From contig CAJTEY010000001.1 in the NCBI GenBank assembly GCA_910575775.1, positions 124,001 to 188,000 of the forward strand: a DNA stretch of 64,000 bases, given 5' to 3'. Every line of letters begins with the position of its first letter. Position 1 is the stretch's first letter. Of the stretch, positions 1-51,483 are shown in pieces. Below the pieces are notes generated by a model. It searched no databases and was not told where the DNA came from. It saw only the letters and a list, made by a program, of their open reading frames with translations. The translations under genes and the position numbers were made by a program. The DNA is from Lachnospiraceae bacterium (lineage in GTDB: Bacteria; Bacillota; Clostridia; Lachnospirales; Lachnospiraceae).

Positions 1-3000
1 AGATCACAGAGGAAAAGCTCCCTGCAGCGCTCTTGACACAGACTCCTGACTGGGTTGCTGACACTGTCTCCCAGCAGTGCGGTGATATCTCGGCCGTATT
101 TGCACCCAGGTATTATGCAATGGGTGATACCAGACCGTTTCTTGCCAAAGTGTCCGGTCTGAAAAAGGATTCCGGCAGAAAATATACCCTGACGCTCTCC
201 ATCGGTGAAAAAGCCGTGTCCAGCAACGAAATTGCTTCCGACAGCAATTATTATGATATGTACTATATCAGGAACATCCTGACGGATTCGTCCGGTGCGG
301 CCACAGACATCGCCATTACGGAAGATGCACCCTGCGAAGCCCAGGTCACCCTGACAGACCAGTACGGAAACATCTGGCTGAAACAGGACGCTCAGTTTAC
401 ATTTACCGCAGACATAGCCGGCTCACCCGTGGCTGAGACAAGATACATCAAGCCAAACGCCAAATCTGTGTACATCCAGATCGCCAATCTTCCCGCGTCC
501 TGTACCGAGGAGCAGATTTCCAGCGTGACTCTGGTTGATGCTGATGGAAAGAAGGCTGGAAAGGCCACCTCTCTCTCTCTTTATTCGAATAGCTACGATC
601 CGTATGAAGACTGTTTTGGTTACTACTATATCTCCGGCCTGACAACCAGCCTGCAGAGCCAGACGCTTTCCTGCACCATGTATTTTTCCAAATATCTGAC
701 GATGGGCATGTACAAGGCGGTCATTACCTGTACTGACCAGACCTCCTATACGGTAGAAAATACAGTATCGGTCGATAACACGGCCGTTTTGACTTATTTG
801 CATCCGGCAACCGATCCATACTACGACAATTACGGAGACTATCTGTATGTTACGCTTTCAGGTATCAACATCGATCCGACAAAAGTCCGCCCGGTTTTCT
901 ATCATGGCAACACCGTGATCTCGGAGTTTGTCAATGCCGTACCTGAAAATAACGAGGAAACATATCTCTACAAATTAAAGAAACTTCAAAAAAATGTGTA
1001 TTGGAATGCGGCCGGTTCCACAGATTATACCTATCGATTCGAGGCAGACCCCAGCTATGCTTTCATAGACATGATAAAAGACAAGCAGATCTCTCTGTCC
1101 GCATCATCAGAGGATTTTGTCTCCTTTGAACACTATAATTATAAGAAGGGCCTTTACGAAGTCAAAACTGACTCCACTGTCGACGAAGGCACGAAGGTTT
1201 CCGTATCTGTCTACAGCGACAGCAAATACGAAACCTGCATGGGCACTGCCGAAGATACCATCACTGAGGAAATGCTGTCCCTCGCATTTGCGGACAGCTC
1301 CGGGAACAGCTACGCGCCCCCGCAGAACAAGGCAGCATATTTCATATATGCCTACACGGACAAGAACGGAAAGGCGAAAACTTTTAACCATACCAACAGC
1401 ACTGTCAGATGGTATAACTACTCCACGGGCAGCAGCGGCGATGGCGCAAAATCAATATACTCCGACACCATCCGCTACCATGCGCAGCCATTAAAGAAAC
1501 TGTCCATGCACTTAGCAATTCCCGAGAAATACATATTTGCAAATGAGACAGTCACTGCGCAGATTTACAAAGGTCAGAATAGCATCGGCAGCAGTGTGAC
1601 ATTCACCAAAGGGAAAACCGCTGACGGCTATGTCAATCACACTGGCACATGGAGCGATTCCTCCGGCCTTTCCGAAGGTGTATATCGGGTGCAGTATATG
1701 GCAGGGGCGTCCGGCGCGCTCTCGCACGACCTCTATGTGTATGATGACAGCAAGTTTTACATGAATAACCAGTGGGCAGGCTCCTGGTCCAGCAGCAATA
1801 AAAGCGGAACTTATGTAGAATTTTCTTCCGAACAGCTTGCCGGCCATTATATTCACAAATATAACGGCAAAGTAACCAACGAGGCAGCGATGAGCTATTG
1901 GAACGACGGGGGCTTCCGGCTCGAGCTCTTTGACCTGCTGGGAGACCCGGTCACTGACTGGAAACTAGACCACGTCAGCTGGTCAGGTTCCAATTTCACC
2001 TTGTATCTGACAGGCCTTTCCCAGGAATACATCGGCGTGTATGCAAAGATCAGCAAAGCAGAAAAGCTGGGAATCAGACTGTCTTCCGGAACGGTACATT
2101 ACTCGGATACATACAACGCAAACGAAACATATGGCGTGTGGCATTCCCTGGGCAGCAGCGGCGTCTGGTTCAGCAGCGACGACACCAACACGAACGCTTA
2201 TTATGGTTTCAGTTCCTACGCATATCCTGTAACCGTAACGATCACCAGACCATATGACACAACTGTCATAGATACCTTTACAGTAAAAGAAGCGACGAAC
2301 AACAATTATTACTACTTTACCGCAGGCGATCTGCAAAAAACGGATCCCAAAGAAGCCTACCGCATGACAGCAGTAAATGCGGACGGCAGCCACGATTCCG
2401 AGATCGGCTATCTCGCTGTGAAAGGTGACACCACTGTCGTAAATGCGACAGGCGTAACACTGGACAAGACCACGCTGAATATGCAGCTTGCCCAGACGGA
2501 AACATTGACGGCTACGGTAAAACCCGACAATGCAACCAACAAAAATGTCACCTGGTCAAGCGACAATACCGCCGTTGCCACGGTTAATACAGCCGGCGTC
2601 GTGACGGCAGCCGGGACAGGTACCGCTAAAATCACAGCCACTACCCACAACGGTAAGACGGCGTCCTGTACCGTCCAGGTATATAACTATACGATAAACC
2701 ATACCTCTCTGCATTTCGACCTGTCCGCTGAGCCGGACCGGACAGAGGTTCTGAAGGTAAACGACGGTACTGCGGATATCAGCGATATCACCTGGAGCAG
2801 CAATGACGAGAGCGTTGTCACCGTATCCAGAGCCGGACTCGTAACCCCTGTCGGCGCAGGTACTGCCAAAATTCTGGCCGCAGTTAAGAACGGCCCTACG
2901 CTGACCTGCGACGTAACCGTAAGCAGAAATCAGCTGAACGGAGTCACCTTAAATATGAGCAGCTGTACCCTGTATCTGGATGCGCAGAATGCGCCGGTTT

Positions 3001-5903
3001 CCCAGATGCCGGATACCCAGCAGTTAAAGTTATTTGTGACACCAAGTGATGTCTCCATCGAGTCAGTCACCTGGGCATCCGACAAGCCGGCTGTCGCTTC
3101 GGTCGCAGAGAACGGAATCAATCCTCTGACCGCCGTTGTGACCGCACGCAGCAGAGGCGCCGCTAAAATAAGCGCCACTGTTACCACAAAATCAGGCTCG
3201 GAGACGGCTGTGTGCGAAGTTGTGGTAAAGACCGCCACAACTGTGGACGATGCCAGCCTTCCTACGGGACTGACGGCACTGACAAACGAACAGCTCACAC
3301 TGGCAGATGTAAAGCTTCCACAAGGCTGGACATGGCACGAGCCGTCCCGCAGCGTTTCTTTGAAACAGTTTGCCGGCGTGCAAAGCAAAAGCTTTCTGGC
3401 ACAGTACAATGACCCGCAGGACGCTGACGCAAAACCGTTTGAAAAAGATTTATCCGTGGCGTTCACCACTGTGACCGGCATTGCCATAGGCGCAGACAGC
3501 AGCTCTCTGCAGAAAGGCAAATCTTCACCACTGTCCGTGCTCTGGGACATCAACGGTGCACCGCTCGATCTCTCCGCATACGGCAGCCGGGTAGAATGGA
3601 CCATAGATAAACCGGCAGTTGCGAAGCTCAGCGCCGCCAGCGGATCAGAAGTAACCCTGGACGCTGTCGAAGCCGGAAATGCGACTGTAAAGGCACAGAT
3701 CAAATTTGCGGATAATAAACTGCTTAAAACACAGTTTAAAATCACAGTTACCGAAGGGGCACCCGCAGCAATACAGGTGACCGCCGTGGACGGTTTCTCC
3801 GCTGATGCACAGCAGAAACATGTGTACTACGGTACGATAAACACCACTGACGCCTCCAATACGGGCACGATCCATGTGACCGTCACAGGCGCAGATAAGC
3901 TGACGCTTAAAAACAACAACGCCAAGGTAATCAAAACCGACAAGCCGACGGCTGTCGAGGGCGGCTACAACATACCGCTCACCATGAAAGCCGCTGGCAT
4001 GGCAAAAATTACCCTGATCGCAAACGACGCCGCCAAGACACAGACCGAGATCCGTCTGCACGTGTCCGATGCGATGCCAAACGTCAGTGACACACCTGTC
4101 ACAATAAACCTGCAGCAGACCACAGGCACTGCATTTGCACTCTATCCGTGCACAGGATACCAGGTGACAAATGTCAGCCTTGCGGGAAGCGATGCCGGTA
4201 AGTTCACACTGAATACCGACGCCTCGCCGGAACAGTATGTGATCAAGGCAGCCGACGGCACGGCCACGGGAACATACAAACTTACTCTGCAGGGCACGGT
4301 AAAGGACGGAGCAAAAGAGTACAACTATGACAATGTGCCTCTTACCGTCAAGGTTGTCGATCAAAAACCGAAATTTAAGATCAAACAGACAGCAAAGGTA
4401 AATCTCTTCTATAAGAACTGGGAAAACAGCCGTTTAACGGTGACATCCGAGGAGACTCTGGATCGGGTGGAGCTGGCTGACTGTGATTTCACCGTCGAAA
4501 ATGTCAACGGTTCCCATGTCCTGAAAGCCAAAGGAGGCGGACTTGCCGCAGACTGCGATAAGAAGGGTACGCTGACCTTACATTTCAGCGGCTATAAAGA
4601 CATTACGGCAGACTTTACTGTTGGCGTGGAAAAGAAAGCGCCCGCATGTAAGTTCTCCAGCAAGACTGTAACGCTCTATCCCGATGCGGGGTTAAACAGC
4701 GCAATTTTGAATCCGACTGTCTATCAGCCAGACGGAAACCCCTACGCTGATGTAACGTATGAACTTGACAGCGCATCCAGCAAAGCCGGTTTCGCCCTGA
4801 TGAATGACGAGAAGGGGAACCTGCTGATCCAGTACACTGGAAAGGGCGGACAGAATGCATCCTATGGTACCACGTTCACACTGTCACACAGTACGTGGAC
4901 AAACGAGCTTGACGTACCGTTTACCGTTAAAGTGAGCAAAAACAAACCGGCTGCCAAGCTGGCCAAAACTACGCTGCAGCTCAACACAAACTCTGCATCC
5001 ATGGCTTATGACGCTGCGGCGACAGCAGTGATGTGGAAGGACGGCGCCGCATTTACACCCGCCGGGGTGAGCGTAAGCGCAGCAGACGGAAAGTCGCAGG
5101 CAGTCATCCAGACAGGCATTGTCTTCCAATATGACGGGGAGAGCCAACAGGTAATTGCCAGGCTGAACAACACGGCTGTGGCACCCGGCAGCTACAAATT
5201 CAAGGTAAATATCCGGGCAACCGATACGCTGACAGTAAGCACACCGCTCACCGTCAAAGTCACGGACACAGCTATGGATAAGGCAGTCAAGATATCCGCC
5301 AAAGGAAACATTGACGTATTAAACCGTGAAGGAACCTATGTGACGGTGACACCCTCACTGAAGTCTCTGAACGGAACCATAACCGGCGTGCGCCTTTCCG
5401 GCAGAGCAGCCCACCTGTTCCTTGCAGAGTGCGAAGACGGCAAAGTATTCATTTATGCCAAGCCAAATGCAGCGCTGATTACCAAGTACAACTATAAGGT
5501 AAAACTCGATCTCAACATTGAAAACGCAGCCGGAGATTCGATCCGCTACATGACGCCGGAGATCAATCTCAAATTAAAGCAGGGCAAGCCCAAGGCAGCA
5601 GTCTCTCCCAAGAGCCTCACCATATACAGCGGCACATCTCCTGCCATCACGCGCCGTATCACTGCCACACTGAAAGGACGCGAAACGGAACTGCCGATTG
5701 AGAACGTAGAACTGCTGAATGAAACTGACGCATTCCAATGCGATTATACAGATGCAGGAAACAACGGCCCTGTCATCACGTTGAGAAATACCGCTGAGAC
5801 AATTAAGGGCAAAACCTATAAGCTGCAGTTGAAAGTAACATTCCGCAGTCAGGCAGATAACGAAAAAGCTACTGTCATCCGCTATTCTGTCAAAGTAAAA
5901 TAG
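1..5903 (+). CDS. Giant secreted/surface protein with Big_2 Ig-like domains (5' partial)
   Basis: The reading frame is open from the first bases of the window, so the true start and any signal peptide lie upstream; at least 1966 residues are encoded here. Counting from the first in-frame TTG at 33, residues 1-800 are Tyr/Ser/Thr-rich beta-sandwich-like sequence without a family I can name. Three Big_2-type bacterial Ig domains follow (about 803-975 and 980-1070), with the typical pattern VTLDKTTLNM...TVKPDNATNKNVTWSSDN and G-T-A-K-I-T-A. The remaining ~880 residues are further repeats of about 90 residues ending in PLTVKV/PFTVKV. Big_2 domains are common in adhesins and secreted enzymes of Firmicutes. 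There is no LPXTG motif or C-terminal membrane anchor; the protein ends RYSVKVK. No catalytic module is visible, so a structural or adhesive role is an inference. It is convergent with nadE and followed by a terminator. Confidence 0.8.
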   Translation, partial: ITEEKLPAALLTQTPDWVADTVSQQCGDISAVFAPRYYAMGDTRPFLAKVSGLKKDSGRKYTLTLSIGEKAVSSNEIASDSNYYDMYYIRNILTDSSGAATDIAITEDAPCEAQVTLTDQYGNIWLKQDAQFTFTADIAGSPVAETRYIKPNAKSVYIQIANLPASCTEEQISSVTLVDADGKKAGKATSLSLYSNSYDPYEDCFGYYYISGLTTSLQSQTLSCTMYFSKYLTMGMYKAVITCTDQTSYTVENTVSVDNTAVLTYLHPATDPYYDNYGDYLYVTLSGINIDPTKVRPVFYHGNTVISEFVNAVPENNEETYLYKLKKLQKNVYWNAAGSTDYTYRFEADPSYAFIDMIKDKQISLSASSEDFVSFEHYNYKKGLYEVKTDSTVDEGTKVSVSVYSDSKYETCMGTAEDTITEEMLSLAFADSSGNSYAPPQNKAAYFIYAYTDKNGKAKTFNHTNSTVRWYNYSTGSSGDGAKSIYSDTIRYHAQPLKKLSMHLAIPEKYIFANETVTAQIYKGQNSIGSSVTFTKGKTADGYVNHTGTWSDSSGLSEGVYRVQYMAGASGALSHDLYVYDDSKFYMNNQWAGSWSSSNKSGTYVEFSSEQLAGHYIHKYNGKVTNEAAMSYWNDGGFRLELFDLLGDPVTDWKLDHVSWSGSNFTLYLTGLSQEYIGVYAKISKAEKLGIRLSSGTVHYSDTYNANETYGVWHSLGSSGVWFSSDDTNTNAYYGFSSYAYPVTVTITRPYDTTVIDTFTVKEATNNNYYYFTAGDLQKTDPKEAYRMTAVNADGSHDSEIGYLAVKGDTTVVNATGVTLDKTTLNMQLAQTETLTATVKPDNATNKNVTWSSDNTAVATVNTAGVVTAAGTGTAKITATTHNGKTASCTVQVYNYTINHTSLHFDLSAEPDRTEVLKVNDGTADISDITWSSNDESVVTVSRAGLVTPVGAGTAKILAAVKNGPTLTCDVTVSRNQLNGVTLNMSSCTLYLDAQNAPVSQMPDTQQLKLFVTPSDVSIESVTWASDKPAVASVAENGINPLTAVVTARSRGAAKISATVTTKSGSETAVCEVVVKTATTVDDASLPTGLTALTNEQLTLADVKLPQGWTWHEPSRSVSLKQFAGVQSKSFLAQYNDPQDADAKPFEKDLSVAFTTVTGIAIGADSSSLQKGKSSPLSVLWDINGAPLDLSAYGSRVEWTIDKPAVAKLSAASGSEVTLDAVEAGNATVKAQIKFADNKLLKTQFKITVTEGAPAAIQVTAVDGFSADAQQKHVYYGTINTTDASNTGTIHVTVTGADKLTLKNNNAKVIKTDKPTAVEGGYNIPLTMKAAGMAKITLIANDAAKTQTEIRLHVSDAMPNVSDTPVTINLQQTTGTAFALYPCTGYQVTNVSLAGSDAGKFTLNTDASPEQYVIKAADGTATGTYKLTLQGTVKDGAKEYNYDNVPLTVKVVDQKPKFKIKQTAKVNLFYKNWENSRLTVTSEETLDRVELADCDFTVENVNGSHVLKAKGGGLAADCDKKGTLTLHFSGYKDITADFTVGVEKKAPACKFSSKTVTLYPDAGLNSAILNPTVYQPDGNPYADVTYELDSASSKAGFALMNDEKGNLLIQYTGKGGQNASYGTTFTLSHSTWTNELDVPFTVKVSKNKPAAKLAKTTLQLNTNSASMAYDAAATAVMWKDGAAFTPAGVSVSAADGKSQAVIQTGIVFQYDGESQQVIARLNNTAVAPGSYKFKVNIRATDTLTVSTPLTVKVTDTAMDKAVKISAKGNIDVLNREGTYVTVTPSLKSLNGTITGVRLSGRAAHLFLAECEDGKVFIYAKPNAALITKYNYKVKLDLNIENAAGDSIRYMTPEINLKLKQGKPKAAVSPKSLTIYSGTSPAITRRITATLKGRETELPIENVELLNETDAFQCDYTDAGNNGPVITLRNTAETIKGKTYKLQLKVTFRSQADNEKATVIRYSVKVK

Positions 5904-25772: not shown

Positions 25773-28700
25773 TTACCTCCACCACCACAAAAATCCCTTC
25801 GGCTTTATCGTAAATTTCACCGTCTTTTCGCCGCCATAGTTGTCTGCGCCCTTGATTGTCACGCTGGCTGTTCCCTTCTTCACATTATTCTTATAGCTTC
25901 CCGGCACGATCTCCCACTGGCTCCGCTCCTGATTTTCGTCGATCGGTCTTCCTTTGACTTTAACCGTGATATCTTCCTTATCCAGAGTGATCTCCTGCCC
26001 GGTGTATACCTGTTTCGGAACCGAAACTGCCGCCGAAGAGATGGAAGACTTGGAAATGCGGTACTCCCCTGACAGGGTACCCGTGTAGTTTCCGCCGTCT
26101 TTCCCCTTCACGGTCACCCGCAGAACCGTACCTGCCGGAATGATATCTTCGGTATTCACAACAGTGCCTGCGGCACGGACAGCAGACCCGCCTCCAGAAA
26201 TATTCTGCACCGTTGTCTCATCCTGATAAGTATACATGACATTCTTGTCATAATCTGTGCCTGCACGAAGAACTGTACCATCCAGATCCGTAACCGTCAC
26301 CTTTGTCACATAGCCGTTTTTCTTATTCTGGTAAGTCTTATCCTGCGCCGACAGCTTCAGTTTTCCAAGCTCCTGCTTTGTAATTGTATAGGTTAACGCC
26401 TTGCCGTAGGTTCCCTTAAAACATCCTTTTCCTTTTATAGTGACTGCCGGAAGTTTTTCGGTGTCGCTGCCATCGTTTAGGGCCTTATGATTCTTGAAAG
26501 TCAGCGTGTAATCCTTTCCTTCTGTCAATACCTGTGTACTGCCGTCGTCCCGCCTGAAGGTGAGCGACACAGCGGGCTTCGCCCCGCCTTTGGCATAAGG
26601 TACGCTCTCCTGAAGGAGCGCCACCGTCACCCTGCTTTCCTTATCTGCCGTCAAGTCAAAGGGCAGAATCTTAAAGCTCTTCTTCATCGTCCCTGTATAT
26701 GCGCCTTTTCCCGTAAAGATCGCAGAGGCCGTGCCCGCCTCCCGGTTCTTTTGCCAATCGACTGTATAATCCGTTCCCTCCCTAAGGAGTGTGTCCACAG
26801 TCACGCCATCCTTTTTGACTTTGAGAGACAGCGAAACCTTCGGCGTAATAGCAACACCGCCATAGGAAAACTCTTTCTCTGCCAGGCCTGTAACCACCGC
26901 CTTTTTGATAGGTGTGCCCGTAATCTTAAAGCTGATCCGTTTTGCGCCGCAGTACCCGGCCGTCTCAATTCCCGTCACCACAGCGTATGCCGTTCCCACA
27001 GCCGTGTTGCGGCTGTAAGCCACCGTATAATGCGTATTCTCCGTCAGCGTTGTTTTTCCGTCTTTCACCGTAATCTGCGGCATAAGCGCATCTCCCGTGT
27101 AAGGTTGCGCTTTCACTCCGCCCACGCTCAGCTTACTCACCGGTTTCAGTGTGTCTGTCACCAGGAGTCTGAGCCGGCGGCTGCCTTTAAAATTTCCCTT
27201 TCCGGCAATCTCGATCCAATAGACGCCCGGCTCCTTTACGGAATCCAGCTTTCCTCCGTCCGTGCCGCTTACATAGGTATAAGTATAATCTGTCCTGTTT
27301 TTCAGCTTTGTATCGTTCCATATAAGGACCGGTGCCGGTTTCTGCGGCTTGTTACTGTATGCCACAGCCATGTCATCCGCCGCAAAGTTTCCATCCGCCT
27401 CTGTGCCTCCGATATCTAACGGCAGAATCCGAAATGTCTGTGTCTCTTTCCCGGTATAATTCCCTTTGCCTGTCACCGTAACCGTAGGCGCGGTTTTGGC
27501 CACAGATGCCTTGTCTGCCTTCGTATTGTTCTTATAAGCCACGGTGTAATCCACTTTTTCTCTCAGCAGCGTCTTATAATCATAAACTCTCACTTCCGGC
27601 CTGATCGCCTTTCCTGTATAGGCGTACCCTGTGTCGGACAGACCTGCAATCCAGAGTCCCTCCGGAATCACCCCGTCGGAAGGCAGATCCCCCGGCAGGA
27701 CGTCTCCGAAACCTCCCACCAGAAGCACGCCGCTTTTGTAACTCATGTGGTAGTTGTTTCCGGCATCGGCGCCATAGGGTATGATCTGATAGCGACCGGG
27801 CTGTAAGGGTGACGCAAGAGCCGGAATGTAGCGGAACGACGGCTCTCTGTGCCACGTATCGCCTTCCAGAAAGCCTTCCGCCTCCCATTTAATGTCTGCG
27901 TCCTCCGGCGGCTGTGCTCCCGGCTCAAGTGTCAATGAGGAAACGCTTATCTTCACTTCCCGCTGTCTGATCTGAAAACTGTAAATGTTTTTCCGAAGGG
28001 CATACTGCTGCGTTGCGGTTCCCGACAATTCCACAGATAATCTATAGGAGCCCGCCTGTGTGGGCGCCTCCGCAGTTTCCGTATAGACAGTCCCATCCGC
28101 CCTTGTACCAGAGTACCGATAGACAGGTGCAAGATCCGCTATCACATTCCCCTCAGAATCCGTGATCACAGCTGCACCGCTATACGGGCTGGCCTCACCG
28201 TCATACAGTTTGCTGGTCACGCTCACGCCGGACACCGTCACAATTTTTTTAAGCCCGCCTGCTCCATCATCCAGATAGCCGTTTTTATAAATAAGGATGC
28301 TCTCCGCCTTTTTCTGGGGCAGCTCCATATAGATCCGGCCGTCTGCGGATTTCCACTGATCCCCTGTCTGCGACGGCAGCGGCACCTTGGTGACACAGTT
28401 GACTGGCGTATAAAGAATAGATAAGGAAGAACACCCGGCAAAGAGATTCTCCACATAACTGTAAATTCTGTCCATGTTAAAGTTTCTCATATCCAGATCG
28501 ACCAGACTGCTGCAGCCGCTGAACATGCCGGTCATATCCGCATTCCTGTTTATGTTCACTACAGCGGGTCTCTGAAAACTGCTCAAATCCAGACTCGTCA
28601 GGGCTTCACAGTCCGCAAACATACGACTCATATTTTTCAGAAACCCGATATCAAAACTGCTCACATTCACATCGGTAAGATTGCTGCAGCCTTCAAACAT

Positions 28701-31700
28701 ACCACTCATGTCCTCAACCAGATGGGTATCAAAGCCGCCTAACTGCAGCGCAGTCAGACTACTACAACCGGCAAACATACCACTCATATTTTTGGCGCTG
28801 CCCGTATCAAAACCACTCACATCCAAATCCGTAAGGCTATTGCAGCCGAAGAACATACGGCTCATATCTCTGGACTGTGCCGTTCTGAAATGGGACAGAT
28901 CCAGCCTGGTAAGTGAACTGCAGCCGGAAAACATATCCTGCACACGTCTCTCGTCATACGGTCCTTTGATCATGTATTCCCCAAAGCTGCTTATATCCAG
29001 ATCCGTCAGACTGCTGCAGTCCTGGAACATGCCTGCCATGCCTCCCACCTTTTCCGTCGTAAAGCTGCTCAAATCCAGACTGTCGAGACTGCGGCAATTT
29101 TTAAACATGTTTTGCATATTTGTCACACTGCCAGTTTCAAAGTTACTCAGATCAAGGCTGGACAGAGCAATACAGTCTTCAAACATCCCTCCCATATTCC
29201 CTACATTTCCCGTATCAAAACTGCTTACATCCAGATTTGTCAAAGAACGGCAGCCGAAAAACATTTCCTCCATATTCGTTACATTTCCCGTCTTAAAATC
29301 GTTTAGATTCAAGTCAGTCAGAGAACGACAGCCGGAAAACAACTCACTCATATTGGTGATTCTGCTGGTATCAAATTCACTCAGATCCAGGCTCTTAAGA
29401 TTAACACAGTTTTTAAAAATACCTCCTATGTTTTCTGCGCTTCCCCGCAGCTTTAACGACTGCAAAGCGGTACACGAGCTGAACAGATTATGGATATCAT
29501 AAGCCTTGATCTGGCACATGTTCAGTTCCTTAAGTGCCGTACATCCATAAAACATATTTCCCATGCTGTTGGCGGACATCCCAGAATTCATCGCCCCCGT
29601 GTCGAAATTGGATATATCAAGTTTTTCCAAAGAAACACAACCCTTAAACATGCTTTCCATGTAGCCTGTCTTCCCCGTATGAAAGCTGCTCACATCCAGG
29701 TCGGCAAGCTTCTTGCATCCCTCAAACATACTCACCATGTTCTGAACCCTGTCCGTATGAAAAATTCGAAGATCCAGAACCGTAAGGCTGCGGCAATTCT
29801 TAAACATATAGCACATTGACGTCACGTTCGCCGTATTCAGACCATCCAGGTTCAGTTCCTCCAGAGCGTAACAGCCCTCAAACATGCAGGACATATCTGT
29901 TACTTTACCCGCTTTCAGGCCGGACAGATCTATGCTTTTCAGATTTCTGCAGTTATAAAACATGCGCGTCGTGTTGGTAATCCCACTCACCCTAACTTCC
30001 GCCGTAAGAATCCTGTAATCTTCGGCCCACGGAGGAGTCATCTGATCCCAGAACACCGCGTCCTCTTCCGCATAATCCCCGGTTCCCTCTACTGTCAATT
30101 TGCCCTTTTTGTCTATCGACCAGGAAATCTCGTTTATTTTTCCGCTGTCGACCACCTCAGCCGGAGGTTCCGTAGCGTCTCCGATTTGCAGGACACCGTT
30201 CCTATATCTGATACTGTAATTTCCCGCGACTTCATCTGCCACAGCCGCTCCATAGGGTATAATGGCGTATGTTCCCGCCTGATCCAGCGCAATTTTACTT
30301 TCCTCCGTGCCATATTTAAGCGTCGGCCGTATCGCCAGCGTGTCCGTCCCGGCCATTTCACTGACTTCACAGGTCAATGTGCTGAGAACCGGCAGAGAAC
30401 CGCCAAGCGCCACGTTCACCGACGGCGCCGTGACCGTCACTTCTTTACGGGCAATGCGGAATGCATATGTGGTTTTCTTACAGATATATTTCTCCTCATC
30501 CAGCCCCGAAATCTGAAATGTCAGCGTATAACTTCCTGCCTGAACCGGCGCGTTCGCACTTTCCGCATATGCACTGCCATCTGTCAGAGTCCCGGAATAA
30601 ACGCCGGAAAGCACAACCCCCGGGATTGCCGTTCCCGCCGCATCCGTGACAGCGGCAGTCCCTTCATATGTAAACGGATTACCGTCATATTCCTTTCCTG
30701 CCACCGTGATCCCGGTAACAGAAACAAGCTGCTTCGTTTTTCCGTCTCCCGGATAGCCGTTTTTATATAACACAATGCTCTCACTCAGACCAATTGGCAG
30801 CTCACGGTACTCTGTCCCGTCTTCCGTGTACCATTTCCCTGCTTGATCAGGCAGCCTCTCCCTGATCAGGCAGTTGACTGGCGTGCAGATATACTCCATT
30901 TTCTCCAGCTCCCAGATATCCATCGGGTCACCTGTACAATATCCCATGTCAAAGCTGCTCAGATCCAACCGTTTCAGACTATTACAGCCACTAAACATTT
31001 TTCTCATATTTTCTGTATTTCGTGTGTCAAAACCAGTCAGATCCAAATCCTTCAGTCTGCCACAGTAATAAAACATAGAAGACATATTTTCCACTCTGGA
31101 TGTGTCGAAACAGCTTAGATCCAAATCCTCCAGTTTGTCACAGTAAGAAAACATCGAAGACATATTTTCCACCTTGGATGTGTCGAAACAGCTAACGTCC
31201 AGCGTCGTCAGATTCTGGCATTCGGAAAACATGCCGCCCATGTCTGTTACGCTGCTCGTATCAAAGTTTTCAGCATCCATATTCAATATAGATGTTGAAT
31301 AAAACATCATATTCATGTTCGTCACATTGACAGAATTAAAATGACCAAGCTTTATATTTCTTCCGCATCCGGCAAACATCCATGACGTATCTGTCACATT
31401 TTCCATGTTAAAATGACTGATATCCAGATCAGACAGACACCCGTTCCTCCAGATCGGTTTCACCGTTCCGCTATCGTCAACACCACTTTCATAGCCTCCC
31501 ACGCAGAACATCCCACTCATATTTGTAACAAGGCTGGTGTCAAATCCGCTCAAATCCAGCTCTCCCAGGGATCTACAGCCACCAAACATACCTTCCATAT
31601 TTGTGACACAGCTCGTGTCAAATCCGCTCAGATCCAGTCCCCTTAGGGATTTACATCTGCTAAACATACCACTCATATCTGTGACACGGCTCGTGTCAAG

Positions 31701-32582
31701 TCCTGCCAGATCAACATCCGTCAGGCTGCTGCAGCCAGAAAACATATGTTCTGTCGAAGTTATGCCCGTCACTTTTACAATCACGGACGTCACGTCCTCT
31801 CTGTCTGCCCATGGAGGCGCAATATTGCCGTCCCCATAGTCCCCGGTTCCCTCAATCGTGAGGGTTCCTTCCTCAATCTTCCAAATAATGTCATTCACTT
31901 TACCCGAATTAACCGCTTTTCCGACAGACTGCCCCTCTTCTGCCATTACTTCCACGTTCCTATCATTCGCTGAGACGCTGCCCGGCATTTCTTCCATAGG
32001 CTGCTCCTCGGGGGACTCCACTCCCGGCTGAGCCGGATTTTCTCCTTCTGTCTCTTCCGTATCAGTGTCATCCGACGGCTTCTGTGACGCATCGGGTGTC
32101 TCTTCTTTGCCGGAATCCCCGCTATTTCCTGTTTCGTCCTCGTCACTCAGATTCCCAGACGTATCTGGCCCTGTTTCTTCTTCCGGCGTATCCGGCACCG
32201 TTTCTCCTTCTGACGTATCCGGCTCTGTTTCTCCTCCCGGCGTATCCGGCCCGGTTTCTCCTTCTGACGTATCCGGCCCTGTTTCTCCTTCTGGCGTATC
32301 CGGCCCGGTTTCTCCTTCTGAGGTATCCGGCCCTGTTTCTCCCTCCGACGTATCCGGCACTCTTTCTCCTACTGACGTATCTGTCTCTGGCTTTTGCTCC
32401 TGGTACTCCGCTTTCGGATTCCCCTGTGCTTCTTTGCCAATTCCTGACGCAGATGTCAGTATTTCTGTCTCCGCTGCGGACACCGGCATTTTTGTCATTG
32501 TCACTGTCATTGCGCAAGCAAGCAAAATTGCCATCCCTCTTTTCCAGAATACCTTCCCTTTTTTGCCAAGCATAGCTTTCAC
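25773..32582 (-). CDS. BspA-like leucine-rich-repeat giant surface protein
   Basis: A 2269-residue secreted protein. It has a signal peptide (about 1-37, KRGMAILLACAMTVTMT...VSAAE) and a Pro/Asp/Thr/Glu-rich stalk with ~7 copies of a 9-residue unit (G/V-PDT-S/P-EGET, about 76-142). Two BspA/DUF285 blocks follow (about 274-560 and 860-1380), built of ~24-residue units like DLSGFDTSxVTNMSGMF. MBG-like YDG domains (about 640-740, 1460-1560) come next, then ~8 repeats with the YTGKAIRPEVRV...DYTVAYKNN pattern (about 1650-2260). It ends GFLWWWR, with no LPXTG or transmembrane anchor. BspA proteins bind host matrix or microbes in known cases; adhesion here is inferred. The ATG follows AAGGAG. Its promoter contains a G10 tract suggesting phase variation. 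Confidence 0.9.
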   Translation of the reverse strand: MKAMLGKKGKVFWKRGMAILLACAMTVTMTKMPVSAAETEILTSASGIGKEAQGNPKAEYQEQKPETDTSVGERVPDTSEGETGPDTSEGETGPDTPEGETGPDTSEGETGPDTPGGETEPDTSEGETVPDTPEEETGPDTSGNLSDEDETGNSGDSGKEETPDASQKPSDDTDTEETEGENPAQPGVESPEEQPMEEMPGSVSANDRNVEVMAEEGQSVGKAVNSGKVNDIIWKIEEGTLTIEGTGDYGDGNIAPPWADREDVTSVIVKVTGITSTEHMFSGCSSLTDVDLAGLDTSRVTDMSGMFSRCKSLRGLDLSGFDTSCVTNMEGMFGGCRSLGELDLSGFDTSLVTNMSGMFCVGGYESGVDDSGTVKPIWRNGCLSDLDISHFNMENVTDTSWMFAGCGRNIKLGHFNSVNVTNMNMMFYSTSILNMDAENFDTSSVTDMGGMFSECQNLTTLDVSCFDTSKVENMSSMFSYCDKLEDLDLSCFDTSRVENMSSMFYYCGRLKDLDLTGFDTRNTENMRKMFSGCNSLKRLDLSSFDMGYCTGDPMDIWELEKMEYICTPVNCLIRERLPDQAGKWYTEDGTEYRELPIGLSESIVLYKNGYPGDGKTKQLVSVTGITVAGKEYDGNPFTYEGTAAVTDAAGTAIPGVVLSGVYSGTLTDGSAYAESANAPVQAGSYTLTFQISGLDEEKYICKKTTYAFRIARKEVTVTAPSVNVALGGSLPVLSTLTCEVSEMAGTDTLAIRPTLKYGTEESKIALDQAGTYAIIPYGAAVADEVAGNYSIRYRNGVLQIGDATEPPAEVVDSGKINEISWSIDKKGKLTVEGTGDYAEEDAVFWDQMTPPWAEDYRILTAEVRVSGITNTTRMFYNCRNLKSIDLSGLKAGKVTDMSCMFEGCYALEELNLDGLNTANVTSMCYMFKNCRSLTVLDLRIFHTDRVQNMVSMFEGCKKLADLDVSSFHTGKTGYMESMFKGCVSLEKLDISNFDTGAMNSGMSANSMGNMFYGCTALKELNMCQIKAYDIHNLFSSCTALQSLKLRGSAENIGGIFKNCVNLKSLDLSEFDTSRITNMSELFSGCRSLTDLNLNDFKTGNVTNMEEMFFGCRSLTNLDVSSFDTGNVGNMGGMFEDCIALSSLDLSNFETGSVTNMQNMFKNCRSLDSLDLSSFTTEKVGGMAGMFQDCSSLTDLDISSFGEYMIKGPYDERRVQDMFSGCSSLTRLDLSHFRTAQSRDMSRMFFGCNSLTDLDVSGFDTGSAKNMSGMFAGCSSLTALQLGGFDTHLVEDMSGMFEGCSNLTDVNVSSFDIGFLKNMSRMFADCEALTSLDLSSFQRPAVVNINRNADMTGMFSGCSSLVDLDMRNFNMDRIYSYVENLFAGCSSLSILYTPVNCVTKVPLPSQTGDQWKSADGRIYMELPQKKAESILIYKNGYLDDGAGGLKKIVTVSGVSVTSKLYDGEASPYSGAAVITDSEGNVIADLAPVYRYSGTRADGTVYTETAEAPTQAGSYRLSVELSGTATQQYALRKNIYSFQIRQREVKISVSSLTLEPGAQPPEDADIKWEAEGFLEGDTWHREPSFRYIPALASPLQPGRYQIIPYGADAGNNYHMSYKSGVLLVGGFGDVLPGDLPSDGVIPEGLWIAGLSDTGYAYTGKAIRPEVRVYDYKTLLREKVDYTVAYKNNTKADKASVAKTAPTVTVTGKGNYTGKETQTFRILPLDIGGTEADGNFAADDMAVAYSNKPQKPAPVLIWNDTKLKNRTDYTYTYVSGTDGGKLDSVKEPGVYWIEIAGKGNFKGSRRLRLLVTDTLKPVSKLSVGGVKAQPYTGDALMPQITVKDGKTTLTENTHYTVAYSRNTAVGTAYAVVTGIETAGYCGAKRISFKITGTPIKKAVVTGLAEKEFSYGGVAITPKVSLSLKVKKDGVTVDTLLREGTDYTVDWQKNREAGTASAIFTGKGAYTGTMKKSFKILPFDLTADKESRVTVALLQESVPYAKGGAKPAVSLTFRRDDGSTQVLTEGKDYTLTFKNHKALNDGSDTEKLPAVTIKGKGCFKGTYGKALTYTITKQELGKLKLSAQDKTYQNKKNGYVTKVTVTDLDGTVLRAGTDYDKNVMYTYQDETTVQNISGGGSAVRAAGTVVNTEDIIPAGTVLRVTVKGKDGGNYTGTLSGEYRISKSSISSAAVSVPKQVYTGQEITLDKEDITVKVKGRPIDENQERSQWEIVPGSYKNNVKKGTASVTIKGADNYGGEKTVKFTIKPKGFLWWWR
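32157..32357 (-). repeat. 27-bp tandem coding repeat in the BspA-like stalk
   Basis: About seven in-frame 27-bp units encode G/V-P-D-T-S/P-E-G-E-T, with very similar DNA (core TATCCGGCCCTGTTTCTCC on the plus strand). As the unit is a multiple of three, slippage would change stalk length without breaking the frame. Confidence 0.85.
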
Positions 32583-32608
32583 CTTATCTCCTTATCTGAT
32601 TATTTAAA

Positions 32609-32641
32609 AAAAGCAGCCGAGTAACGCTCTCTGCTGCTTTT
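32609..32641 (-). promoter_or_regulatory. 5'-terminal hairpin with U-run in the BspA-like mRNA
   Basis: On the minus strand, AAAAGCAGC pairs with GCTGCTTTT, with an inner GAG/CTC pairing, followed by a T-run. It begins almost at the predicted transcript start (~32636), too early for ordinary termination, so an mRNA-stability or early-attenuation role is more likely. Confidence 0.5.
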
Positions 32642-32642
32642 C

Positions 32643-32673
32643 ATTATACCCCCCCCCCTAAATTTTCTGTCAA
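32643..32673 (-). promoter_or_regulatory. Promoter with G10 homopolymer spacer (probable phase-variable switch)
   Basis: On the minus strand: a perfect -35 TTGACA (32668-32673), then GAAAATTTA plus ten G (tract 32649-32658), then a perfect -10 TATAAT (32643-32648). The spacer is 19 bp; eight G would give the optimal 17. Homopolymer tracts between -35 and -10 switch transcription by slipped-strand mispairing in known cases (Bordetella fim, Neisseria porA/opc). Confidence 0.8.
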
Positions 32674-32799
32674 TATACATGACAGTTCTGAGGATTTTAC
32701 CTATTGCTTCTCCATTCCTGGCATAGCTTCCCGCCCTGTAAAGAATGAGCGCTTTCTCACGTTTCTCTATCTAAGCAATTCCAACCGCCCCATAATAAA

Positions 32800-32833
32800 A
32801 GAGGCTGCGCACAAATCCGATGCCGCAGCCTCT
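32800..32833 (-). terminator. Intrinsic terminator after the PH-like gene
   Basis: On the minus strand, AGAGGCTGCG pairs perfectly with CGCAGCCTCT (10 bp) and is followed by TTTATT. It lies 7 bp after the stop codon. Confidence 0.8.
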
Positions 32834-32839
32834 GTGTCC

Positions 32840-33220
32840 TTACAGTCCAGCCTTATTCCGAAGAAACTCCATCCACTCTTTTCTCTTCATGACAGAACAT
32901 CTATGTTTCACGTTCTTTCCCTTTTCCGGGTCGTAGCAGATCACCATAAGCCCTGTAGGGATTAAAGGAAGCAGCCCTCCCACATTGACAAGCTTCATCT
33001 CCTTGATGTCGCTGTATTTCACGGAAAAGTTGCTTACGCCAAGCAGTCCCCCGGTAAAGATAAACTTCTCCTCCGTGAAGAAGAAATTACCTCTCGTCTG
33101 CGACATCATTTCCCATAAATCGCCCTTCGTATGTTCAATGATGTGATCCTCATCACTCATATACCCGGCCTCTCTCAGAGATTTCTCCCACTTACCTACC
33201 GTTCCTAAATCCAGTTTCAT
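32840..33220 (-). CDS. PH/GRAM-like domain protein
   Basis: A 126-residue cytosolic protein. The N-terminal ~35 residues are helical; the rest reads as alternating strands (NFFFTEEKFIFTGGLLGVSN, FSVKYSDIKEMKLVNVGG, GLMVICYDPEKGK) with a C-terminal helix KRKEWMEFLRNKAG. This is the layout of bacterial PH-like or GRAM domains. The function is unknown; some relatives are membrane-associated stress proteins. GGTGG lies 8 nt before the ATG. It is monocistronic, with its own terminator, between carB and the BspA-like gene. Confidence 0.6.
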   Translation of the reverse strand: MKLDLGTVGKWEKSLREAGYMSDEDHIIEHTKGDLWEMMSQTRGNFFFTEEKFIFTGGLLGVSNFSVKYSDIKEMKLVNVGGLLPLIPTGLMVICYDPEKGKNVKHRCSVMKRKEWMEFLRNKAGL

Positions 33221-33280
33221 TGTTCATCCACCCTTTCATACATTTTTTTCTATCATAACACTGTTCTTTAGAAAAAGCCA

Positions 33281-36200
33281 TTATTCTTTGTCGTGTATCT
33301 CCCCGTGCAGTTCCTGCAAGGACTTCACTTCGCTGCCCTTGTGAGTTTTCAGGTAGTGAATACCCTCCGCCGTCACCTTCGCCGCCGCAACCGTGGTGAT
33401 ATAAGGCGCTTTCGCCTTGATCGCCGCCTTGCGCAGATAGCTGTCATCATGCACGCTGTCCTTGCCCACGGGAGAGTTGATAATCAGATCGAAATCCCCG
33501 TTGGTGATCATGTCGCCCACGTTAGGACGCCCCTCGTAGAGCTTCTTCGCCTTCGTGGCGGGAACCCCTGCTGCCGTAATCAGATTGTAAGTGCCTTCGG
33601 TGGCCACGATTTTAAACCCGTCTTCCGCCAGGTTCTTCGCCACTTCCACCGCCTCATCCTTATCTTTTTTATTCACAGAAATCAAAACCGTTCCCTCAAG
33701 CGGAAGCTTTGACTGCACCGCCTCCTGCGCTTTGAAGAAGGCTTCGCCGTAAGAGCGGGAAAGCCCGAGCACTTCGCCCGTGGAGCGCATTTCGGGTCCC
33801 AGAATCGGGTCCACCTCGGGGAACATGTTGAAGGGGAACACCGCCTCCTTCACACCGTAATTCGGTATCACCTGTTCTTTTAATCCCGGAACCGGCGACG
33901 GACGCCCCGTAAGCTCCGAGGTAATGATATCCGTGGCAAGAGGCACCATGCGTATATTGCAGACCTTGGACACAAGCGGCACGGTGCGGGACGCCCTCGG
34001 ATTCGCCTCCAGCACGAACACCTTGCCGTTCTCGATGGCGTACTGCATGTTCATCAGCCCTTTGACATGCATCTCCTCCGCAATCTTCCTCGTGTACTCC
34101 TTGATCGTCTCCACGCTCTCCGCCGGAATATGCACGGAAGGAATAATACATGCCGAATCGCCGGAGTGAATGCCCGCCAGCTCGATATGTTCCATCACTG
34201 CGGGAACAAAAGCGTGGGAACCGTCGCTGATGGCGTCCGCCTCGCACTCCAGAGCGTGATTTAAGAAACGGTCAATCAAAATCGGCCTGTCGGGCGTCAC
34301 GCCCACCGCCGCATTCATGTATTCCGTCAGACTTGCGTCATCGTAGACCACTTCCATCCCTCTGCCGCCCAGCACATAGGAAGGACGCACCATCACCGGG
34401 TAGCCGATCCGCGCCGCAATGCCGAGCGCTTCCTCCACCGTGGTAGCCATACCCGACTCCGGCATGGGAATGTCCAGTTTCTCCATCATGGCGCGGAACT
34501 GGTCGCGGTCCTCCGCCAGATCAATGACCGAGGGGGACGTGCCCAGAATCCGCACCCCGTTCTGTTCCAGTTCGGATGCAAGATTGAGGGGCGTCTGTCC
34601 GCCAAACTGTGCAATCACGCCCAGTGGCTTTTCCTTGTTATAAATGCTCAGCACGTCCTCCAGCGTCAGCGGCTCAAAATACAGCTTATCGGAAGTGTCG
34701 TAATCCGTGGACACCGTCTCCGGGTTACAGTTCACGATGATCGTCTCGAATCCAAGCTTTTTAAGCGCCATTGCCGCGTGTACACAGCAGTAGTCGAACT
34801 CGATGCCCTGCCCGATCCGGTTGGGGCCGCCGCCCAATATCATAATCTTCTGTTTTTCCTCATTCACCGGGTTCTTATCCGGCGCGTTGTAGGTGGAATA
34901 ATAGTAGGCGCTGTTCTCCGTACCGCTGACATGCACACCCTCCCATGCCTCCTCCACCCCGAGCGAAAGTCGGCGGTTACGGATATCCGCCTCGGGAATC
35001 TCCAGAAGCTGGCTCAGATATTTATCGGAGAAGCCGTCCTTCTTCGCTGTGACAAGCATTTCATCGGGGAGCATCTCTCCCTTATGCAGTAAAATAGCTT
35101 CCTCTTCCTCCACCAGTTCCTTCATCTGCTCGATAAAGTAAGCCTTGACCTTGGTTATCTCAAAAATCTCTTCCACCGTCGCGCCTTTGCGCAGCGCCTC
35201 GTACATGAGGAAGTGACGCTCACTGGAAGGCGTGTTCAGCCTGCGCAGCAGCTCCTCTTTCGGCAGCGTATCAAAATCCTTCGCGTGGCCCAGCCCGTAA
35301 CGCCCCGTCTCAAGGGAACGGATGGCCTTCTGGAACGCTTCCTTATATGTTTTGCCGATGCTCATAACCTCGCCCACGGCGCGCATCTGGGTGCCCAGCT
35401 TGTCCTCCACACCCTTGAACTTTTCAAAGGCCCAGCGGGCAAACTTGATCACCACATAATCGCCGTCCGGCACATATTTATCCAAAGTTCCGTACTTGCC
35501 GCAAGGAATGTCCTTCAAGGTAAGGCCAGCTGCCAGCATGGAAGACACAAGGGCGATCGGGAATCCTGTCGCCTTACTCGCCAGCGCGGAAGAGCGCGAG
35601 GTACGGGGATTGATTTCAATTACAATAATACGGTCCGAAACGGGATCATGGGCAAACTGCACGTTGGTGCCGCCGATCACCTGCACCGATTCCACGATTT
35701 TGTATGCCTGCTCCTGCAAACGCTTCTGGCACTCCTCAGAGATCGTCAGCATGGGCGCGGAGCAGAAAGAATCTCCCGTATGAACCCCCAGAGGATCTAT
35801 GTTTTCAATGAAGCAGACAGTAATGATGTTGTTGTCCGCATCCCGAACCACCTCAAGCTCCAGCTCTTCCCAGCCCAGAATGGACTCCTCCACCAGCACC
35901 TGCCCCACAAGACTTGCCTGTAACCCCCTGGCGCACACCACCTTCAGTTCGTCCTTATTATAGACAAGGCCGCCACCCGCGCCGCCCATTGTGTAGGCAG
36001 GGCGCAGCACCACAGGATAGCCCAGCTTTTCCGCGATGGAAAGCGCCTCTTCCACGGAGTATGCCACCTCGCTGCGGGCCATCTCGATGCCAAGCGCATT
36101 CATGGTCTTTTTAAATTCAATGCGGTCTTCGCCGCGCTCTATGGCATCCACCTGCACGCCGATGACCTGCACGTTATATTTTTCTAAAATACCCGCCTTG

Positions 36201-51454: not shown

Positions 51455-51483
51455 ATTATACTGCCCTGCCTTTTTCTTGTCAA
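51455..51483 (-). promoter_or_regulatory. Perfect consensus promoter of the EAL gene
   Basis: On the minus strand: TTGACA (51478-51483), a 17-bp spacer and TATAAT (51455-51460), giving a ~75-nt leader. Confidence 0.8.

Follow-up and report, generated by a model that had tools for sequence, protein, structure and literature searches.

Does a run of ten guanines between the two boxes of a promoter vary how strongly a gut bacterium expresses a giant surface protein? The locus lies in a 64,000-nucleotide stretch of Lachnospiraceae DNA (the window), part of a genome of 4.88 Mb, and a sequence-only reading had proposed a phase-variable promoter for the BspA-like gene encoded there. Direct reading of the minus strand from 32673 to 32643 yielded TTGACA, GAAAATTTA, GGGGGGGGGG and TATAAT, an exact match to the described order of TTGACA, nine bases, ten G and TATAAT. 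Nine non-G nucleotides and the G10 tract add up to the 19-bp spacer that had been stated, and eight G would indeed leave 17 bp (9 non-G + 8). Promoters of the porA/tp0126 type are characterized by a homopolymeric tract of G that separates identifiable -35 and -10 boxes, and this arrangement was found here.

The promoter and the gene downstream

The promoter is located about 60 bp upstream of the GTG start of ORF 32582-25773 (-), which encodes 2269 amino acids as announced (Table 1). No other consensus promoters with a spacing of 16-18 bp were detected in 32400-33300. Perfect pairs of boxes are rare: dinucleotide shuffles of the window presented an expectation of 0.01 for TTGACA-N15-20-TATAAT, and two were found. 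Besides the poly-G promoter this was only the pair at 51455-51483 (-), with an ordinary 17-bp spacer. The G-runs of the window comprised 57 of length 5, four of length 6, none of 7-9 and one of length 10. G8 by itself is not rare in the window under dinucleotide shuffling, thus it is the combination of tract and boxes, and its recurrence, that carries the significance.

Table 1 Features around the poly-G promoter in window coordinates
Feature	Position	Strand	Remarks
-35 box TTGACA	32668..32673	(-)	perfect consensus, from sequence
Spacer outside the G-tract, GAAAATTTA, 9 nt	32659..32667	(-)	from sequence
G10 tract GGGGGGGGGG, putative slippage site	32649..32658	(-)	directly adjoins the -10 box; from sequence
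-10 box TATAAT	32643..32648	(-)	perfect consensus, from sequence
Leader hairpin GCAGC...GCTGC, then T7	32606..32637	(-)	terminator-shaped; from sequence
Ribosome-binding site AAGGAG	32588..32593	(-)	5 nt before GTG; from sequence
Gene of the 2269-aa BspA-like protein	25773..32582	(-)	GTG start; DUF285 and LRR_5 repeats
126-aa gene, family not recognised	32840..33220	(-)	upstream of the poly-G promoter; sequence, Pfam

In Pfam, the 2269-aa protein matched DUF285 (PF03382) in nine stretches with 434 bits (cut-off 25) and the BspA-type LRR_5 family (PF13306) with 114 bits (cut-off 27.7). Its N-terminus is signal-peptide-like. From this N-terminus and the BspA-type repeats we infer, by analogy within the family, that the protein is surface-exposed. 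The BspA protein of Tannerella is known to function as an adhesin, and membership in the BspA-like family suggests a putative adhesin role here as well. The protein ends with KGFLWWWR (about 25773-25800 (-)); KGFLWWWRK was present in a further DUF285 protein that is also a target of a poly-G promoter (L237), and KGFRWFYR in L209. The motif KGFLWWWR(K) is a possible candidate for a retention signal.

In the leader, the hairpin begins at the predicted transcription start (about +1) or immediately downstream of it. Its folding energy (MFE) was no better than that of shuffled sequences (z 0.11) and it was consequently rejected as an exceptional structure; a riboswitch or known RNA was discarded for want of an Rfam family match in the leader. 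A function as attenuator or 5' stabiliser is possible. Upstream, a hairpin and its T-rich tail (about 32830-32790 (-)) come after the 126-aa gene and would separate this gene from the poly-G promoter.

Poly-G promoters in the genome and its relatives

Within the 4.88-Mb genome, TTGACN10G8 occurred at five sites and the reversed pattern at none; a near-consensus -10 box was present at all five. The genes downstream encode proteins of 2269 (window), 2178, 2305, 2091 and 678 aa, all with signal-peptide-like starts. DUF285 proteins are encoded behind three of the five promoters (window, C40, C43), and the genome contains five DUF285 loci, hence poly-G promoters at three out of five. Of the other two, the locus on C6 has no listed G8 tract nearby, and the one on C25 begins at a contig end.

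The search of related genomes that had been suggested was carried out. TTGACN{6,12}G8N{0,5}TANNAT was present in 31 of 77 congeneric genomes, compared with a single match of the reversed pattern. The poly-C equivalent had three matches in the genus against 67 poly-G sites; poly-C was therefore rejected as an equivalent spacer element. A family-wide sample contained the pattern in 43 of its 397 genomes and yielded no control match. A stricter pattern, TTGACA-8..10-G9+-TANNAT, revealed among the matches listed numerous named gut Clostridia and Bacilli, besides treponemes, streptococci and other bacteria. The matches listed as L086-L165 spread over many phyla (Bacilli, Treponema, Streptococcus, Streptobacillus, Lentisphaerae, Alphaproteobacteria and others), with mostly signal-peptide-like downstream proteins. 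Two cultured strains, Schaedlerella arabinosiphila DSM 106076 and Mediterraneibacter agrestimuris DSM 111629, have this promoter form in their genomes. Spacer counts from this pattern were left out because its gap limits favour 17-19 bp. The locus L083 (G016:C47, around 5559-5588) carries a tandem pair of G10 tracts, the second within TTGACA-9-G10-TATAAA; it was missed by the strict pattern, thus the class of poly-G-spacer promoters is undercounted.

The targets in the genus are predominantly large or secreted proteins. A simple and crude signal-peptide rule, which some cytoplasmic and membrane proteins of the window also pass, held for 51 of 64 targets against 12 of 39 window genes. A length of at least 1000 aa was reached by 28 of 64 targets, several of which were truncated at the edge of the retrieved sequence, compared with 4 of 39 window genes. 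The same signal rule held for 57 of the 76 targets from named genomes among the matches listed. Of 65 targets, 11 had LRR_5 domains and nine had DUF285, with giant proteins scanned over the first 800 aa; several giant targets without LRRs had no Pfam match in these N-terminal 800 aa. Further targets were methyl-accepting chemotaxis proteins, solute-binding lipoproteins, members of the DUF6709 family and Tad/type II secretion-like parts. The promoter class includes the three DUF285 genes of this genome and the 11 BspA-like targets in the genus but is not BspA-specific: the majority of targets are other proteins that are large or secreted.

Tract and spacer lengths

The genome contains 42 tracts of G8 or longer: four G8, six G9, 20 G10, five G11, four G12, two G13 and one G21. 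The lengths peak at ten, while chance runs would drop steeply, as from 57 G5 to four G6 in the window. Many of these tracts are situated inside ORFs, some in frame, others joining two long frames only after a change of one base, the usual sign of contingency loci. The coding tracts of G8-G21 include G000:C28:11300-18900 (L039), L012, L022, L025-L027, L032 and L038; contig C28 has four tracts within about 5 kb and another at C28:10518. Polytopic membrane proteins and flagellin, assigned by eye, are among the products. At L034 (G000:C20:48035) a G10 tract closely precedes the ATG of a flagellin-like ORF, GGGGGGGGGGTAAAATG; it could serve as a Shine-Dalgarno or -10-proximal sequence. Several tracts were located at a contig end or no further than about 50 bp from one (L043 at the end of G000:C82, L234, L105), which suggests that assemblers break at G-tracts.

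In the clear coding cases the G's are on the sense strand of the tract-bearing ORF. The strand bias is therefore not specific for promoters, and a promoter-specific cause for G on the non-template strand is not needed. Many tracts of a preferred length, in ORFs as well as in promoters, were found, as expected of a poly-G contingency-locus genome, and judged from its sequence the tract set is the pattern of such a genome. Campylobacter is not known to carry the mismatch repair gene mutS1. The present genome encodes MutS1 (1055 bits, cut-off 642), so that an absence of mismatch repair was rejected as cause of the tract abundance and a repair-deficient genome of the Campylobacter type is not claimed. 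With mutS1 present, slippage is not necessarily rapid. Loss of repair is no general requirement either: meningococci with intact mismatch repair still switch at mononucleotide tracts, and do so more often in mutS mutants (PMC3639595).

Spacers were compared for 67 sites of the genus, each counted in a single reading after removal of one overlapping alternative; the match on G070:C16 was left out, and the window site was represented by its own sequence. The tract directly adjoins the -10 box in 57 of the 67. G9 was the most common tract (35 sites), followed by G10 (16), G11 (10), G8 (5) and G13 (1). Spacers of 19 bp dominated with 37 sites, besides nine of 16 bp, eight of 18 bp, five of 17 bp and four of 20 bp. 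Permutation of the non-G lengths among the sites placed on average 18.5 at 19 bp, and 37 was reached in 0 of 20,000 trials, thus the non-G and G parts complement each other in length. The sites of the genus are phylogenetically non-independent and orthologues were counted separately; by protein cluster the modal spacer was 19 bp in 21 of 40. Outside the genus the effect was weaker (18 of 53 at 19 bp, expected 13, p 0.06). Among ordinary TTGACA/TANNAT pairs in the same DNA, spacers of 16 bp (6 cases) and 17 bp (10 cases) formed the peak, and 19 bp occurred twice.

Orthologues differed in spacer length in 8 of 13 sets, among which the pair of window and G075 is counted. Examples are G000:C14 with G13 and 22 bp against G075:C7 with G11 and 19 bp, and the set of L215 with spacers of 19, 19, 20, 18 and 16 bp. 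Two sets from four species each were constant at G9/19 bp. For the window locus, the only orthologue found, in G075, has an identical 31-mer with the same G10 tract, and the upstream 150 bp are 97% identical. The G10 tract in G075 and the two invariant sets suggest that a 19-bp spacer may be preferred or may be an active form. The prevalence of 19 bp and its constancy in the two sets would likewise be compatible with G-rich spacers having their optimum at this length.

Mechanism, alternatives and known systems

We consider it quite likely that a slipped-strand promoter switch of the porA/tp0126 type controls the BspA-like gene, with slippage and its effect on expression assumed by analogy to these systems. 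Comparison sustained the phase-variable interpretation through a recurrent promoter class before surface or secreted proteins, tracts in ORFs, length differences among orthologues and the poly-G architecture shared by three DUF285 genes of the genome. Dozens of relatives have the same arrangement before large secreted proteins, hence these bacteria probably alter adhesin expression via copying slips at G-runs. The promoter would be recognised by sigma-A, its -35/-10 spacing set by the slippage-prone G-tract. Replication slippage would gain or lose single G's and change the spacer by one base per step, and transcription of the giant BspA-like surface protein would rise or fall in a heritable and reversible manner. 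Because of the analogy to tp0126, with its best spacing of 17 bp, and to the graded steps of porA, the expected output is high for G8 (17 bp), intermediate to high for G9 (18 bp), low for G10 (19 bp) and off for G11 and longer tracts. The deposited G10/19-bp allele would represent a low state, one or two contractions away from high expression. The benefit may be a variable display of adhesins or antigens in the gut.

A wider proposal, to which we give somewhat less than an even chance, is a genome-wide poly-G phase-variation programme of the genus with several promoters per genome. The architecture would be a -35 box, about 9-10 nt, G9-G11 and a -10 box, with a resting spacer of 19 bp, two bases past the ordinary optimum. 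The giant adhesins, costly to make, would be low by default, and contractions by a single base would switch on each one independently in a small number of cells, creating combinatorial surface coats.

Alternatively, the poly-G block may be a fixed promoter element, with an optimal 19-bp geometry of its own or a role in regulator binding, changes in length being incidental. The spacing of 19 bp in unrelated sites with varying non-G bases and the two four-species orthologue sets invariant at G9/19 bp agree with a fixed element, as do the tract adjoining the -10 box in 57 of 67 sites and the G's on the non-template strand (67 poly-G against 3 poly-C sites). However, sense-strand G is also the rule for the tracts in ORFs, spacers range from 16 to 22 bp even among orthologues, and the best spacing for tp0126 is 17 bp in the account of PMC7864442; we regard a fixed element as unlikely. 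A slightly lower probability is assigned to a real promoter whose BspA-like output depends chiefly on a step after initiation, with the leader hairpin and T7 acting as attenuator. The GCAGC/GCTGC hairpin with its T7 begins at about +1 and the G075 orthologue retains the hairpin arms, but the folding energy at shuffle level (z 0.11), the lack of an Rfam match and the other poly-G leaders, which have no obvious equivalent of the hairpin, argue against it.

An error of sequencing or assembly would render the true tract shorter or longer and the 19-bp spacing unreal. G-homopolymers are error-prone on Illumina, deposited lengths can deviate from the population (PMC9187656), and some tracts are at contig ends, L043 ending in G12. 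Such an artefact is nevertheless very improbable: the arrangement recurs in many independently assembled genomes, and errors would neither set tracts between -35 and -10 boxes nor leave the reversed and poly-C patterns nearly empty. We attach practically no weight to a chance co-occurrence of a G-run with promoter-like hexamers; G8 runs alone are nothing unusual under dinucleotide shuffling of the window, but the boxes alone are expected only 0.01 times per window, and dozens of sites stand against one match of the reversed control in the genus and none in the family.

The slipped-strand switch proposed here has its closest parallels in spirochaetes and Neisseria. According to PMC7864442, citing Giacani 2015, the promoter of T. 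pallidum tp0126, an OmpW homologue, has poly-G between the -35 and -10 boxes and is transcribed best at 17 bp. Both promoters share poly-G between the boxes, a spacing set by tract length and a surface protein downstream. They differ in that tp0126 encodes an outer-membrane protein of a spirochaete and its length effect has been measured, whereas here the host is a Gram-positive gut commensal, the protein is a giant BspA-like one and the deposited allele has 19 bp. In T. pallidum tprE/G/J, transcription from promoters with poly-G takes place only at 8 G or fewer (PMC7864442), which accords with the prediction of a low state for G10; these genes, unlike the one studied here, encode a porin family, and a CRP homologue was reported to act together with the tract (PMC7864442). 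The poly-G of N. meningitidis porA is likewise between -35 and -10, and there surface expression is graded: high with 11G, 2-fold lower with 10G and 13-fold lower with 9G (PMC3639595). Whereas porA is one porin of a pathogen, here several promoters per genome precede giant secreted proteins.

In Bordetella fim, a C-tract is located upstream of the -10 box of a promoter that is not known to have a good -35 and needs an activator. In N. meningitidis opc, the poly-C tract encompasses the -35 box (PMC7864442). Both are likewise cases of homopolymer slippage in promoters of surface proteins, but with poly-C and in another position than here. The sequence-only reading had listed fim, porA and opc as precedents for the exact position; this is correct for porA, and tp0126 may be added, but not for opc and fim. 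The adhesin gene sabA of Helicobacter pylori shares with the BspA-like locus a promoter-proximal homopolymer, a T-tract with multiphasic output (PMC4081817); this tract, unlike the G10, adjoins the -35 box and works via the alignment of the UP-element, not via the -35/-10 spacer. Slippage in G-tracts controls pili of Bifidobacterium breve UCC2003, and the authors mention G-tracts in promoter spacers in passing (PMC9187656). This gut commensal also has G-tracts tied to surface adhesins, but it belongs to the Actinobacteria and the tracts studied are in coding sequence, acting by frameshift.

Phase variation in gut Clostridia has been studied mostly on invertible promoters, homopolymer slippage being mainly a topic of pathogens. 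Full-text searches, mostly of openly accessible literature, retrieved no prior report on homopolymeric phase variation in Lachnospiraceae, on BspA phase variation in Lachnospiraceae or on slipped-strand promoters in Clostridiales; the sequence-only reading, which was aware of no description for BspA-like proteins of Lachnospiraceae, agrees with the literature searched. The mechanism is already known, while the lineage, the gene family and the deployment at several promoters appear unreported. If the proposal is true, the poly-G promoter class would represent a heritable stochastic layer on the adhesin display of common gut anaerobes, and tract length would be a simple read-level marker, countable in existing isolate and metagenome data. 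In the BspA-like gene, tandem repeats of the PDTSEGETG type in the N-terminal region (about 32100-32400 (-), DNA self-match 85%) are a possible second source of length variation.
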